Positions 11,269 through 18,757 of a stretch of DNA of 64,000 nucleotides are shown in pieces (positions within the stretch are counted from its first letter, which is position 1; the number at the start of each line of letters is the position of its first letter). The translations under genes and the position numbers were made by a program. The notes under the pieces are model-generated. The model saw only the letters and a list, made by a program, of their open reading frames with translations. It did not search any database and was not told where the DNA came from. Source of the DNA: Patescibacteria group bacterium (GTDB taxonomy: Bacteria > Patescibacteriota > Gracilibacteria > UBA1369); assembly GCA_963169655.1 (NCBI GenBank), contig CAUJCM010000001.1, positions 1-64,000 on the forward strand. The letters are read 5' to 3'.

Positions 11269-13479
11269 TTATCCCAACAACCTCTCTACTTCTTGATAAA
11301 GGTTTTTTAATTCATCAATCCCAAGGTCAACTATTGGTTCATACATGAAAGAATTGAGGTGAATATTTGATGGGGTCATCACCATGACTCTTTCCAGTGT
11401 TTGAATAGCTGATTGGTATTTTGGTTTTTTGCTATAATCTTTTTTAAATCTTTCAAATAATTTACCTGTTTGATTACTACCGAGAGATTTTTTATTTTTA
11501 ACTTTAGACCACATGTATTGTTCTGCTTTAAGACGAATGCCAATAGAGAGAATAATTTTATTTTCTAAAGAAATAGCTTCGAGATTTTGGTCATTTATAA
11601 TTTCTTTTAACTCTTGATCGATGATATCTATAATTTTTTTATTTTTATCTTCAAAAGTGAAATTGATATCTTTAAGAATTGAAGAAAAAGTTTTTTCGAG
11701 ATCTTTAATTGTAATATCTGCTGTATTTAAAACATTTTCTGAACGATTAATAAAATGAAGTAAATTGGTTAGAATTTGATAGTTTGGGCTTTTTTTACCT
11801 TGTTGAAATTCAATTAAATTGCGGATAAATGGGATTGAAGCTATTAAATATTTTTGATTGTGATTTAATTCCTCTCTCCATTTTTCAAAAGGATTAGTAA
11901 ATTTTTTTTCACCAGCTGAAATTAATTGAATTTCTTCGGCTCTTTTTTCTGCAATAAAAGAATGAGTTCTTTTATATTTTTCAGTCAAAACTCTTGATTG
12001 CAAAGTTCTAAAAAAATCAAAATTATGAGTTAAAATGATAGAATAAAAGTTAGGTTCTTTAGCTAAATCATTTAAATATTCAACAATTGCATATTTATTT
12101 TTATAATCAAAAGAGTCAGCAATATCATCAATAATAAATAAAGTTTCTTGATTTTTCTTTAATCTTGCTCGTATTTCAAAAATAATATTTAAGAGGTAAA
12201 AAGCTCTTCTTTCTCCTTGGCTGAGGATTCTTTCTGTGAGTAATTCTTTATCTATTGGATGTGACTTTTTTGTGTTTTGATCTATAAATTGAAAGGTTAA
12301 TTCTGGTTTCTCTAGACCTAAAACTACTAAGTCTGGTTTATTTTGAAGTTCAATATTAAATGGCATATTTACAAATCTTTTTCTGAAAGTTTCTATGATT
12401 ATTTGCCATTCAGGGATTTCTTTTTTGGCTTGAATGATAATTTTTTGAAGTTTATCTCTATTTTTAGAATATGAATTATGAAGATTTTTAATTTCATCTG
12501 ATAATTTAGAGAGATGACTTAGCCAATATTTTTGCTTAAACTGTTTTAAATCATTTAATTCTAAAAGGATTGATGGATCATGTTGAATAATTTCCCTGAA
12601 ATCTTGCATATTATTAGCATGTAAAATCTTGTCAATGTCACGAAATATCATTCTTAATGCCGAGTTTTGAATAATTTGGTTAATTTGTTGATCGATAATT
12701 TCTCTTAACTGTGAATAACTTGTAATTATTTGACCATTTTTAAGTTTTATTTGATGGCCAGTTTTAAAATATCCTTCATCGCTTAAAGCTGATAGAAGTT
12801 TATAGGCTTGAGGAGTGCCAAAATTTCCATCTTCTGAAAAAAGATCTTGTGAATTTTTAAGTAATTCAAAATATTTTTGGAAATAAGAATTTAAGTTTTC
12901 TTGATTTTCTTCAATAAAATTTTCAATTGTAAGATTGTCAAAAATAACATTGTATTTGAAGTCATAGTTAGCGAAAGTTTGATCAGTTATTTGATCTAAT
13001 AGATGATCAATTATTTGATAAAAATTTTCTCCAAATTCTTGAAAGGTTTGAATTATTTCTTTTTCACAATCAGAACTAGATGAACTTATTTTTAATTTTT
13101 TGATGATATCTTTTTTTGTTTGATGAAGTTTTTCAAGAATTTCTTGATATTCTTTTCTTAACTTTTCATTTACTAAAAGTGTAGAAATTTCATCAGAAAC
13201 ATATTCAGTATTGATAAAAGAATTAATTACAAAAATATTTTCGGAATTTAAAGTTTGTTTATCATCTTTGATAATTGATCTTTGATATTTTTTAGATTTT
13301 AAAACTTTATCTTGAGATGGGCGGTTTTGTATATAGTCTTCAAATGTTTTAGCAAAAGAAGTTTTCATCACTCCATTTGATGCATAAATTAAAAAAGTAC
13401 GGAATTTAGAAAAATCAAATTCCTGATCTATCTTGGAAATACCGTGATTATTTTCTAATTTTACTTTTAACTTTTTCAC
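11269..13479 (-). CDS. RecF/SMC-type ABC ATPase, probable defence protein beside the R-M genes
   Basis: The 736-aa protein has an ABC-ATPase head split by a long helical insert. The P-loop is altered: YASNGVMKTS near residue 33, with Lys-Thr kept but two glycines replaced by Ala and Met. The ABC signature LSQGERR (near 420), Walker B LFIIDDIADS (near 450) and switch histidine in LTHNFDFF (near 481) are all good. The C-terminal 230 residues carry no motif I can name. ABC ATPases next to type I R-M genes include the anticodon nucleases PrrC and RloC; placement suggests a similar role, but I see no definite nuclease triad. It has its own consensus promoter. Confidence 0.75.
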   Translation of the reverse strand: MKKLKVKLENNHGISKIDQEFDFSKFRTFLIYASNGVMKTSFAKTFEDYIQNRPSQDKVLKSKKYQRSIIKDDKQTLNSENIFVINSFINTEYVSDEISTLLVNEKLRKEYQEILEKLHQTKKDIIKKLKISSSSSDCEKEIIQTFQEFGENFYQIIDHLLDQITDQTFANYDFKYNVIFDNLTIENFIEENQENLNSYFQKYFELLKNSQDLFSEDGNFGTPQAYKLLSALSDEGYFKTGHQIKLKNGQIITSYSQLREIIDQQINQIIQNSALRMIFRDIDKILHANNMQDFREIIQHDPSILLELNDLKQFKQKYWLSHLSKLSDEIKNLHNSYSKNRDKLQKIIIQAKKEIPEWQIIIETFRKRFVNMPFNIELQNKPDLVVLGLEKPELTFQFIDQNTKKSHPIDKELLTERILSQGERRAFYLLNIIFEIRARLKKNQETLFIIDDIADSFDYKNKYAIVEYLNDLAKEPNFYSIILTHNFDFFRTLQSRVLTEKYKRTHSFIAEKRAEEIQLISAGEKKFTNPFEKWREELNHNQKYLIASIPFIRNLIEFQQGKKSPNYQILTNLLHFINRSENVLNTADITIKDLEKTFSSILKDINFTFEDKNKKIIDIIDQELKEIINDQNLEAISLENKIILSIGIRLKAEQYMWSKVKNKKSLGSNQTGKLFERFKKDYSKKPKYQSAIQTLERVMVMTPSNIHLNSFMYEPIVDLGIDELKNLYQEVERLLG

Positions 13480-14509: not shown

Positions 14510-15142
14510 ATGGATTTTTTAGTTCAATTTATATTTTCGATTATTGCGTTAGTATTGGTGATTGCACTTCATGAATTTGCTCATGCTTATACCGCTTTTT
14601 TATTTGGGGATCCAACTGCTAAGCACCATGGTAGGGTAACTTTAAACCCTTTGAAGCATTTAGATCCAATGGGTACTATTTTAATGTTTTTAGTGGGGAT
14701 TGGTTGGGGAAAACCTGTTCCAGTAAATAGATATTATTTTAAAAAGCCTTTGATGTATGAAGCTATTACGGCATTGGCTGGCCCTTTGATGAATTTGCTA
14801 ATTGCTATTGTAGTTTTAATCCCTTTAAAATATTTTATTGTTTATATCCCTCAACTTTTAGCCTTATTTTTGAGTATAGTTTTTGATATTTCTATTTTGC
14901 TATTTGCTTTTAATATGCTCCCTTTTCCTCCACTTGATGGATCAAAGTTTTTACAACTTATTATCCCAAAAAAATGGCAAGGAAAATACCAAAATTATTT
15001 GATGAATGCTGGTGTGTATTTTTTAGTTTTTTTAGTAATTGATAATTTTATACTAGGAAAGTATTTTGGTTTTTCAATTTTAAGTTGGCTTATTGGATGG
15101 ATTGTCTTTTTTGTGAAATCTATTTTATTTTTAGGTTCGTAA
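14510..15142 (+). CDS. Site-2 protease family zinc metalloprotease (M50)
   Basis: This 210-aa integral membrane protease cleaves substrates within the bilayer. The zinc motif HEFAH is at residues 21-25 in the first membrane segment, and the distal motif NMLPFPPLDGSKF near residues 138-150 supplies the third ligand (LDG). Five or six hydrophobic segments are visible and there is no PDZ domain, so it is the short M50 type rather than RseP. It has no operon partner, and the substrate is unknown. Confidence 0.93.
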   Translation: MDFLVQFIFSIIALVLVIALHEFAHAYTAFLFGDPTAKHHGRVTLNPLKHLDPMGTILMFLVGIGWGKPVPVNRYYFKKPLMYEAITALAGPLMNLLIAIVVLIPLKYFIVYIPQLLALFLSIVFDISILLFAFNMLPFPPLDGSKFLQLIIPKKWQGKYQNYLMNAGVYFLVFLVIDNFILGKYFGFSILSWLIGWIVFFVKSILFLGS

Positions 15143-15221
15143 AAAATATTAAAAGGAGATCTTTAAAAAGACTAATCAATGAAAGCTTGGCTTAAATTTG
15201 TAATAAAGAAGAAAAATAATA

Positions 15222-15377
15222 CAATCCTTTGTGCCGGGCCATCTCAGGAATACATACCCCGTATTCCTATAAGTGGGTGACCGCAACTTCACTCCGCAGA
15301 ATGAAGCAATATGAGCCTCCCTTAATTTATGATTGTGAGAGAGATAACCGAGATTTTATCGAACACAAAAGATTGCA
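15222..15377 (-). ncRNA. Candidate structured non-coding RNA (6S-like?)
   Basis: On the minus strand about 155 nt fold with paired ends: 15364-15375 pairs with 15222-15233 over 12 bp. Inside are three hairpins: GAUAA/UUAUC near 15343-15360; an 8-bp stem CUUCAUUC/GAGUGAAG closed by a UGCG (UNCG-type) loop at 15287-15306; and AGGAAUAC/GUAUUCCU at 15246-15268. Two positions pair as U-G on this strand but would be C-A mismatches on the other, which fixes the strand. A promoter ends just before the 5' end and a T-rich run follows the 3' end. It lacks the SRP, tmRNA and RNase P signatures. 6S RNA is a guess from size and isolation. Confidence 0.65.
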
Positions 15378-15383
15378 TCTATA

Positions 15384-15412
15384 AATATAACATTCTTCCT
15401 AATTAAAGTGAA
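15384..15412 (-). promoter_or_regulatory. Promoter of the candidate ncRNA
   Basis: On the minus strand, -35 TTCACT (15407-15412) and -10 TATATT (15384-15389) have 17-bp spacing. Transcription should begin near 15376-15379, at the outer end of the RNA's closing stem. Confidence 0.65.
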
Positions 15413-15454
15413 GGTATTTAAAGCTGTTTTTATATAAATTATGTTGAAGTTATT

Positions 15455-18400
15455 TTACCATTCTGTGTCGTGAAATGGGCATTTGTCTGTTGGAGAGGTA
15501 TGCTCATTAACTTCAAAATTAAGTAAGTTCATTTGTTGGTAAACAAACTTAATATTTTCAATTACTTCTTTTTCATCTGCTGGTGTTATTTCAAGTTCTG
15601 GATTCTTGAGATAATCTTTTTTCTCTTTATCTTTTTCAAGTAAATCAATTGTCGATTTCAGTACTTTTTTATTTTTAAATTTCTTTTGGAAATTTGGGGA
15701 ATTATCTGCAAGTAGCTTGTAAAATACTAATTGCCTCCAATAATCAACATTTTTACTTTCATCGGATTCAGATTTTTGAGATGGTCTTTTGGATTTTTTA
15801 AGAGCATATTTAGGTTTACCAGTTTTATAGTCAGTGATAATTAAACCTTGATCTAAATCTTCAATCTTATCTATTTTCCCAGTGATTGGAACTCCATCGA
15901 TATTGACACCATCTCTACTAAAATTATATTCAGAAATAATATTTGGATGAAATTTATCTTTATTTTTTTCATAATAATCATTGAGAATTTCTAGACCATA
16001 ATTAAGTCTGATTTGATAATCCTCATCATTTAAAATTTCTCTGGTTAAAGCTGATTTATAAGTTAAGGTTAAAAGCTCTTTTGGTGGCTTAGTATGAGTA
16101 GTGTGATATTGAGTAAAATACACTTCCAAAGCTTTATGAATAGCTGTTCCCATTGATGCTGATACATTTTTTGCACTTGGTATTCTCAAAACATTTTGAA
16201 AGAAAAATTTGCGTGGACATTGTAAATAAGTGTTTACAGCAGTAGGGGAGAGAACAATTTTACTAACTAAACCTTTAATAAATGCTTTTTCTTGTTCTGT
16301 AAAATCATAGTCTTCTTCAAAGAATAATAGTGTTTCTAATTCATTAATTTCTTCTTCTGTATTTGTTTCTTGTTGATTAATTTCAATATAACTTTCATTT
16401 AATTCTTTAATAAATCTGCTAGGATTAATGTTTCTACTTTTATTTTGGTCAGATTTAGCAGTGGGGTAACTGACGAATAGCTCTTTTTTGGCTCTTGTCA
16501 TTCCCACATAAAATAAACGGCGATTATCTTCTTCTTTTTCTTGAAGTTCATCTTTAATTTCAGAGGCAATTAGACCTGGTGGTAATTTTAAAGTATTCAT
16601 TTCACGACTTTTTTCCCAATGATTTTCGGCACAATTAATCATAAAAACATATTCAAATTCCAAACCTTTTGAAGCGTGAACTGTCATTAATTGCACGCCT
16701 GATTTATCTCCAACTAATGGATCTTCATATAATTTAAAATTAAATTCTTGACGAATTTTTAGCTGTTCGAGAAATTGATTTATAGTTAATTTATGATTAA
16801 TTTGATTTTCTTTTTTCAATTCTTTAAACAGAGTATTGATTTTGTTTAACTGGGAAAGTCTGTCTTTTTCTTTGATTAAATTATTTAAAAAACCTGAATC
16901 ACGAATTACAATTTCAAAAAATTTATTAAGTGTTTTGTTTTCAGAATCACTTTTCCATTGAGCTAATTTTTCTGCTAAATCTAAAAAGATTTGTGGATTT
17001 TTAACTTCAGCTTCTTTGAGAGCTTCTTCACTGCTAATTGTTTGGAATAAACTTTTAGAAAAATTGTTGAATCTATTTTTTTGATTGTAGTATTGAGTAA
17101 TTTTAAATACATCTAGTCTTGGGAGTCCAAAAAAGTTTAAAAATAATCCATGTGCTAAATATTCATCATTATTACAATCGTTAATTAGTTGGAAAAGTTG
17201 TATTAATTTTTCAATATTAAAATCATCAAGAATGTTTACTCCTGCAATAATATGATGAGGAATATTTAATTTTTTAAAATATTCAATTAATAAATTTGAA
17301 TTGGAGTGTTTTCGATAGAGTATGGCAATTTGGTTGGGGTCTACACCCTGATTTATTAATTTTTGAACTTTTTTAGCTGTATAGTAACTTTCTTTATCTT
17401 CTGAAGAATAAATATTTATTTTTATTGGACTTTCTTTTATCTCTACTTGGCTTTTTAAATTTTTATCAATGCTTGGGATATGAGAGGCGATTCTTAATGT
17501 GTTATTTTTAATTAATTCGGAAGCAGAATCAAGTATTGTTTGTTGACTACGATAATTTCTGTTTAGAGTAATAATTTTTAAATATTCTTGATATTGGTGA
17601 TGAAAGTCGATGATATTTTCTACTGAGGCTCCTTGAAATCTGTAAATTGATTGGTCATCATCACCTACAACAAAAATATTTGGATTATTAAAGAAATTAC
17701 CGATTAAACTGACAGTAAGATTTTGAGCAGAATTGGTGTCTTGGTATTCATCAACTAAAATATATTGATAAAGTTCTTGATAATCTCTTAGCATACCACC
17801 TTGTGGATTTAATGAGTCTTTTTGAAATCTTTGACTTACTAGCATTATCATATCTTCATAATCATATCTTTTCTTTTTTGCCATTAATTCTTGATATTTT
17901 TGATATGCTTTAGCTAGTTCAAACTGATGAGGTAATTTGTTAGTTAAAGATTTTTTAAAAATTCTTATTTGATCACGAAAATTTAATCTGGATTTATTAA
18001 TTTCTTTTTTACTTTCTGCATTTTGACTTTGAAAATTATCCCAAAGTTTTTGATAGTAATTTAAGTAATTTTGTTGAATATGAGTTGGAGTAGGAAAATT
18101 ACTTTTAATATTTTGTGGATTAACTGCATTTAAGCATTCATCAGGAACTTTTCTTTGAGCATTGCATAATTCTTCAATTAAAGGATTGAAAATATCTGTA
18201 AAACTTTTTATTTCTTGAAGTAATTCTTGAAACTTGGCTGGATTAATATTTTCTTTTTTGAGATTTTGAATACCTTGAATAATATTTTGAAAATGATGAT
18301 ATGGCTCTCCAAGAGGTCTGATTTCGCTTTTGTATCCTAAACTATCAATAGCTTCTTTTAGAATTTCTATTTTTTCGATGTCACTTACTTGTAAATGGTC

Positions 18401-18757
18401 ACTACTTAAATTGAATTCAAATAAATGATCTTTGATGACTTCATTACAAAAACTATGAAAAGTGGTGATTTTGATGTGACTTGCTGAGGGGCCTATAATT
18501 TCTTGTAGTCTGTGTCGCATGGCTGTGACACCAGTTTCTGTGAATGTTAAACATAAAATATTAGAAGGTGAAATTTGTGTTTCAAGTAGAATTTTAGCAA
18601 TTCTAACAGCTAAAATTTGAGTTTTTCCAGTACCTGCTCCTGCAATTGTCATTACTGGTCCTTCAATTGTATCAACTGCTTTTTTTTGCTCCGGGTTTAA
18701 GGAATTGTAATATTTATTAAAATTTTGAAGTGATTCTTGTTGGTCTTGATTTGTCAT
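15455..18757 (-). CDS. UvrD/PcrA-like helicase with C-terminal RecB-family nuclease domain
   Basis: The 1100-aa protein has a superfamily 1 helicase: Walker A AGAGTGKT (near residue 38), Walker B ILVDEYQDT (near 333), GDDDQSIYRFQGA, and TVHASKGLEFEYVF with RRLFYVGMTRAKKEL later. Residues 835-1090 form a PD-(D/E)XK nuclease of the AddB/RecB type, with YLQCPRKFFF (near 847), GKIDKIE and the catalytic TDYKTGK (near 976). Two cysteines (847 region and the CPFHDTEW end) fall where iron-sulfur ligands sit in AddB/Cas4 nucleases, but a full set of four is not evident. Likely role: double-strand end processing or repair. Confidence 0.93.
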   Translation of the reverse strand: MTNQDQQESLQNFNKYYNSLNPEQKKAVDTIEGPVMTIAGAGTGKTQILAVRIAKILLETQISPSNILCLTFTETGVTAMRHRLQEIIGPSASHIKITTFHSFCNEVIKDHLFEFNLSSDHLQVSDIEKIEILKEAIDSLGYKSEIRPLGEPYHHFQNIIQGIQNLKKENINPAKFQELLQEIKSFTDIFNPLIEELCNAQRKVPDECLNAVNPQNIKSNFPTPTHIQQNYLNYYQKLWDNFQSQNAESKKEINKSRLNFRDQIRIFKKSLTNKLPHQFELAKAYQKYQELMAKKKRYDYEDMIMLVSQRFQKDSLNPQGGMLRDYQELYQYILVDEYQDTNSAQNLTVSLIGNFFNNPNIFVVGDDDQSIYRFQGASVENIIDFHHQYQEYLKIITLNRNYRSQQTILDSASELIKNNTLRIASHIPSIDKNLKSQVEIKESPIKINIYSSEDKESYYTAKKVQKLINQGVDPNQIAILYRKHSNSNLLIEYFKKLNIPHHIIAGVNILDDFNIEKLIQLFQLINDCNNDEYLAHGLFLNFFGLPRLDVFKITQYYNQKNRFNNFSKSLFQTISSEEALKEAEVKNPQIFLDLAEKLAQWKSDSENKTLNKFFEIVIRDSGFLNNLIKEKDRLSQLNKINTLFKELKKENQINHKLTINQFLEQLKIRQEFNFKLYEDPLVGDKSGVQLMTVHASKGLEFEYVFMINCAENHWEKSREMNTLKLPPGLIASEIKDELQEKEEDNRRLFYVGMTRAKKELFVSYPTAKSDQNKSRNINPSRFIKELNESYIEINQQETNTEEEINELETLLFFEEDYDFTEQEKAFIKGLVSKIVLSPTAVNTYLQCPRKFFFQNVLRIPSAKNVSASMGTAIHKALEVYFTQYHTTHTKPPKELLTLTYKSALTREILNDEDYQIRLNYGLEILNDYYEKNKDKFHPNIISEYNFSRDGVNIDGVPITGKIDKIEDLDQGLIITDYKTGKPKYALKKSKRPSQKSESDESKNVDYWRQLVFYKLLADNSPNFQKKFKNKKVLKSTIDLLEKDKEKKDYLKNPELEITPADEKEVIENIKFVYQQMNLLNFEVNEHTSPTDKCPFHDTEW

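Follow-up and report, generated by a model that had tools for sequence, protein, structure and literature searches.

The window, a 64,000-nucleotide stretch of a 1.02-Mb Patescibacteria (Peregrinibacteria-like) genome that has a Patescibacteria group bacterium and a Candidatus Peregrinibacteria bacterium as its closest relatives with names, carries on its minus strand, at 15219–15377, a gene of about 160 nt for 6S (SsrS) RNA, the RNA that imitates melted promoter DNA and restrains RNA polymerase. This RNA adds a divergent new member to a known family. We put at about 95% the probability of the full reading, namely that this is a Peregrinibacteria-like 6S gene with its own extended −10 promoter, whose product would mimic an open promoter and bind an RNA polymerase holoenzyme from which pRNA synthesis would release it. 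The original prediction had placed an unassigned structured RNA with its own promoter at 15222–15412. Its structured character, its strand and its promoter were borne out; the RNA is no longer unassigned, being 6S by its match in Rfam, by its relatives and their scores, by reciprocal comparison with Escherichia coli ssrS and by covariation, and the RNA proper spans 15219–15377, the stretch up to 15412 taking in the promoter.

For the minus strand the computed folding energy is −56.3 kcal/mol (z −3.63), a value that none of 200 shuffles equaled, as against −40.1 kcal/mol (z −1.91) for the plus strand; the plus strand was rejected as the coding strand of the RNA on account of this weaker fold and because every model scores the minus strand. 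The predicted closing stem is exactly 12 bp long, with one U-G pair, and joins CAATCTTTTGTG (15375–15364, extending via UUCG to 15360), which would mimic the downstream duplex, to CACAAAGGATTG (15233–15222, extending via CGG); both strands are supported by covariation in held-out sequences. The hairpin with a UNCG loop is present in the sequence as CUUCAUUC-UGCG-GAGUGAAG, as are the two other hairpins that had been described, GGAAUAC...GUAUUCC in the 3′ half and the GGGAG...CACCC arm. The apical arm (15275–15321), closed by GGG/CCC and capped by a UGCG tetraloop, shows strong covariation and would form the upstream-duplex or “−35”-like side. The fold also places a hairpin on the 3′ strand of the central bubble (15246–15268), a likeness, judged by description, to the 3′-bubble hairpin that is known in Bacillus subtilis 6S-1 and is predicted there in the free RNA (PMC8876501). 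Past the 3′ end is the T-rich run noticed earlier (15190–15219, minus strand), a probable termination or processing region; a terminator check of the window region called no separate intrinsic terminator after the 6S stem. The open reading frame list of the window holds no frame of at least 60 amino acids overlapping 15219–15377.

The original prediction had pointed to the 6S families of Rfam, and this was the right lead. In a low-threshold scan of a 331-bp stretch, the 6S model RF00013 was the best match by far, running end to end (model positions 1–187) along 15219–15377 of the minus strand with 41.2 bits and an E-value of 3e-7; the other matches on the stretch, to Vimentin3, a snoRNA and mir-1303, were at chance level and were set aside. 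The score lies below the RF00013 gathering score of 46.4, which is a line drawn by the curators and not a biological feature. A default Rfam scan therefore misses this 6S gene: at the gathering threshold a scan of the window returned only tRNAs, and a search of the whole genome with RF00013 under genome-search filters returned no match, which we read as a filter or threshold miss. We file the RNA as 6S despite its sub-threshold score because of the outcome of reciprocal and structural tests. By DNA search, three relatives from the window's family carry the element, with 76–86% identity, and RF00013 itself matches in 44 of the 89 genomes of the window's order, with 19 of these matches above the cut-off. 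We built a covariance model, R1, from 34 sequences of the order only; it gives the RNA 122.6 bits, the window itself being in the training set. Applied to E. coli, in tests on 1-kb and 20-kb regions, R1 matched 384–567 with 25.7 bits, within one base of the ends of ssrS as annotated (384–566), and in the 20-kb region the sole match of a second model, R2, was ssrS. This mutual recognition with a bona fide 6S RNA is the strongest argument for the assignment.

The sub-threshold Rfam score might instead be taken to mean that this is a different structured RNA that merely resembles 6S, such as a lineage-specific small RNA or an Ms1-like binder of core RNA polymerase. Ms1 has a 6S-like rod and is a small RNA that binds RNA polymerase, but it is reported from Actinobacteria as a binder of the core enzyme without the primary sigma factor (PMC9130861), and the low-threshold scan of the 331-bp stretch gave no Ms1 match. 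Relatives of the window RNA do pass the Rfam 6S threshold, and a model made from CPR sequences only aligns E. coli ssrS from end to end, the UGUUCG/CGGCA closing stem included. We consider a different RNA highly unlikely and retain the assignment to 6S, with which the RNA shares this end-to-end match and closing stem, a central bubble, an apical arm, single copy and a promoter of σ70 type. It departs from E. coli ssrS in length (about 160 nt rather than 183), and from 6S as otherwise known in its score below the gathering line, in the rpmB–M50 neighborhood conserved in its group and in its apical tetraloop, which is usually CGUG in the group and UGCG in the window.

The promoter consists of the −35 sequence TTCACT (15412–15407), a spacer of 17 nt and an extended −10 element, TG-T-TATATT (hexamer 15389–15384), so that it occupies 15384–15412 of the minus strand beside the 5′ stem, as had been proposed. 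Taken alone the match is near chance (six such matches in the region, 3.2 expected); what supports it is that relatives have kept the element in the same position. Thus, at 44 of 70 loci in the order (composition shuffles: mean 12.8, maximum 21) and at 37 of 57 loci outside it (mean 10.5, maximum 18), the RNA is closely preceded by a −10 sequence with at least five of six matches. TG precedes the −10 sequence in 23/63 cases in the order and 17/45 beyond, the upstream frequencies of TG being 0.09 and 0.07. As read from sequence, the RNA thus has an independent promoter of σ70 type and a length in the range of ~150–200 nt, both features by which a 6S RNA is recognized; lengths among the homologs are 152–169 nt within the order and 132–163 nt beyond.

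The gene lies between that for an M50 family metallopeptidase (14510–15142, plus strand; PF02163, 51 bits), which is convergent with it, and that for a UvrD-type helicase with a PD-(D/E)XK nuclease domain (15455–18757, minus strand), which is upstream of the 6S promoter. Synteny identifies the M50 gene as a conserved neighbor of 6S in the phylum, and rpmB, for ribosomal protein L28 (13952–14203, minus strand; PF00830/TIGR00009), as a second. The M50 gene is upstream of 6S and on its strand at 60 of 70 loci in the order and at 32 of 57 outside it, where M50 and L28 neighbors were sought by tblastn only and distant copies were possibly missed; rpmB often lies beyond M50 on the opposite strand at the loci outside the order. 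The covariance search is blind to gene context, and the rpmB–M50 neighborhood therefore lends independent support to the weaker 6S matches; as read from gene order, it suggests an ancestral rpmB–M50–6S locus. In proteobacteria 6S is commonly adjoined by ygfA/fau, a gene absent from its immediate neighbors in the window.

Across 14510–15454 of the window, the orientation of the 6S gene with respect to M50 is the reverse of that in most genomes of the order, the flanking genes being arranged as in genome G003: the order is M50(+), 6S(−), helicase(−) in the window and M50(+), 6S(+), helicase(−) in G003. The arrangement is most simply explained by a small inversion, although relocation or an assembly error might also account for it. 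Elsewhere in the window, the minus strand at 11269–13479, near a tRNA-Ser gene, encodes a 736-amino-acid protein whose one match, of SMC_N/RecF type, is weak.

Because the RNA shares a strand with the helicase gene and begins 78 nt past the stop codon of the latter, it might be thought a 3′-UTR element, or an attenuator of the adjoining helicase or M50 gene, and not an independent RNA. Such an element would hardly be expected to have its own conserved promoter, to keep its conservation while the neighbors on its far side vary between genomes, or to remain conserved in the window while inverted relative to M50, and we give this explanation slightly less credence than that of a different RNA.

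Covariation in homologs, the other check that had been proposed, proved to be strong, also among sequences that had no part in model building. In the order, sequences outside the R1 training set showed changes on both sides in 26 of 32 pairs (239 cells, against 72 in shuffles), and in the phylum such sequences did so in 29 of 32 (571 cells, against 173). Alignments A3 and A4 are fitted to the structure of the model, which somewhat inflates these pair counts; the MAFFT alignment A2, fitted to no model and thus cleaner as to structural bias, agrees with them, with changes on both sides in 22 of 32 pairs and 187 cells against 57 in shuffles. In the sets outside the R1 training, the signal was lost when partners were slid by one to three columns. 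The covariation thus supports the rod typical of 6S, that is, a closing stem, a large central bubble and an apical arm, and the arm strands GGGA and CCCAC are present at all 57 loci outside the window's order. That the structure is a functionless chance inverted repeat, for which the weakness of the lone promoter match and of the T-run might each be cited, has negligible probability given the fold z-score of −3.63 and the strong covariation across the phylum, which we count as already refuting it. Among the 127 homologous loci the apical loop is mostly CCGUGG, with the variants UGUG, UGCG and CGCG, an unusually conserved tetraloop.

Within the order, R1 matches in 71 of 89 genomes, with a single copy in all except one. 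In a sample of 380 genomes of the phylum, at E ≤ 0.001 per genome, R1 found 6S in 143 and R2 in 161 (42%), nearly always in one copy; R2 matched in 147 of the 338 good-quality genomes. R2 was trained partly on matches from this sample, which makes its gain over R1 not fully independent, and the phylum searches score few candidates per genome, which makes all these counts lower bounds. RF00013 matched in 27 of the 380, at sites that R1 also finds in every case, and only four (~1%) exceeded its cut-off. Detection is thus raised from ~1% of sampled genomes at the Rfam cut-off to 42% with R2, at a locus conserved across the phylum, and the covariance models permit annotation of 6S in this group. 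6S RNA has been called widespread in bacteria (PMC9130861). Our search of the open-access literature, the scope to which it was confined, found no paper reporting 6S RNA in CPR/Patescibacteria; some members have likely been annotated earlier. Genome G001, a close relative in the window's family, had no 6S match at the M50 locus or elsewhere in the genome; its M50 and helicase genes are ~50 bp apart (L139 2124–2174), an apparent loss of 6S.

Known 6S RNAs bind the holoenzyme containing the primary sigma factor by way of a −35-like region, located in the apical arm, and a −10-like one, located in the 3′ bubble; synthesis of a pRNA on the 5′ bubble frees them (PMC8876501; PMC8058203). The window RNA folds into a rod in which a large central bubble separates the closing stem from the apical arm, a shape that imitates an open promoter, and by analogy with the family it would be expressed from its own extended −10 promoter. 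Most likely it would bind the holoenzyme with the primary sigma factor and keep it off housekeeping promoters once growth stops, until the polymerase copied the strand of the 5′ bubble into a short pRNA and the 6S RNA was released. The genome appears to encode a primary sigma factor, its gene flanked by primase-like and greA-like ones, as well as two short sigma factors of ECF-like type; apart from a Sigma70_r2 match, these genes were named by eye. In an ungapped alignment, U44 of E. coli ssrS, which we take to be the start of the E. coli pRNA, falls at 15334. The putative pRNA template would then be the 5′ side of the central bubble at 15335–15354 (minus strand), and the pRNA would start near 15334/15335 as GUGAGAGAGAUAACCGAGAU in the sense of the plus strand, its predicted 5′ start being GUGAGAGAG. 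At the place expected for the template, GTGAGAGAG is invariant in four close relatives, as are the first nine bases of the predicted pRNA, GUGAGAGAGAUAACC.... Cells with few genes, probably dependent on a host, would in this way retain a global switch coupling transcription to the state of growth.

Finally, we examined the region downstream of M50 in those genomes of the order that gave no 6S match. In five of the six genomes of f2, a sister family in the same order, it holds an element of about 110 nt (L141 1332–1447, L142 1322–1432 and L147 1325–1439, minus strand; L144 2214–2330 and L145 2153–2271, plus strand), with a strong consensus-like promoter upstream and a 6S-like outer stem, UGUGCG...ACGGCA. 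A short helix enclosing two small hairpins replaces the bubble and apical arm, and the GGGA/CCCAC arm is missing. No other 6S was detectable in these five genomes. The complement folds about as stably in several of the five, and covariation could be drawn from five sequences only. In genome G088 a near-consensus 6S closing stem, CUCUGUGGUGUUCGU / ACGGCAUUGUGGAG, encloses only ~32 nt (L143 2245–2316, plus strand), a candidate for a reduced or decaying 6S. None of the f2 RNAs had an Rfam match, and R3, a model made from them, found nothing significant outside f2 (one weak match, E 0.066).

From the locus and the closing stem we infer that the f2 RNAs descend from 6S, and we give even odds that they and the G088 element are naturally reduced 6S RNAs. 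A function for the f2 RNAs is plausible, because B. subtilis 6S-1 remains functional in vitro when truncated to short arms (PMC8876501), yet much of the bubble has been lost as well. If the interpretation is correct, the reduced forms of the one family would be a natural means of finding out which parts of 6S are indispensable, and the smallest RNA able to regulate polymerase would become open to direct testing. In alignments made with R2, the outer stems of L143 and L142 fall on the two ends of 6S, with the interior mostly missing, at 25.4 bits (E 0.00016) and 17.4 bits (E 0.011), respectively, over 7 kb.
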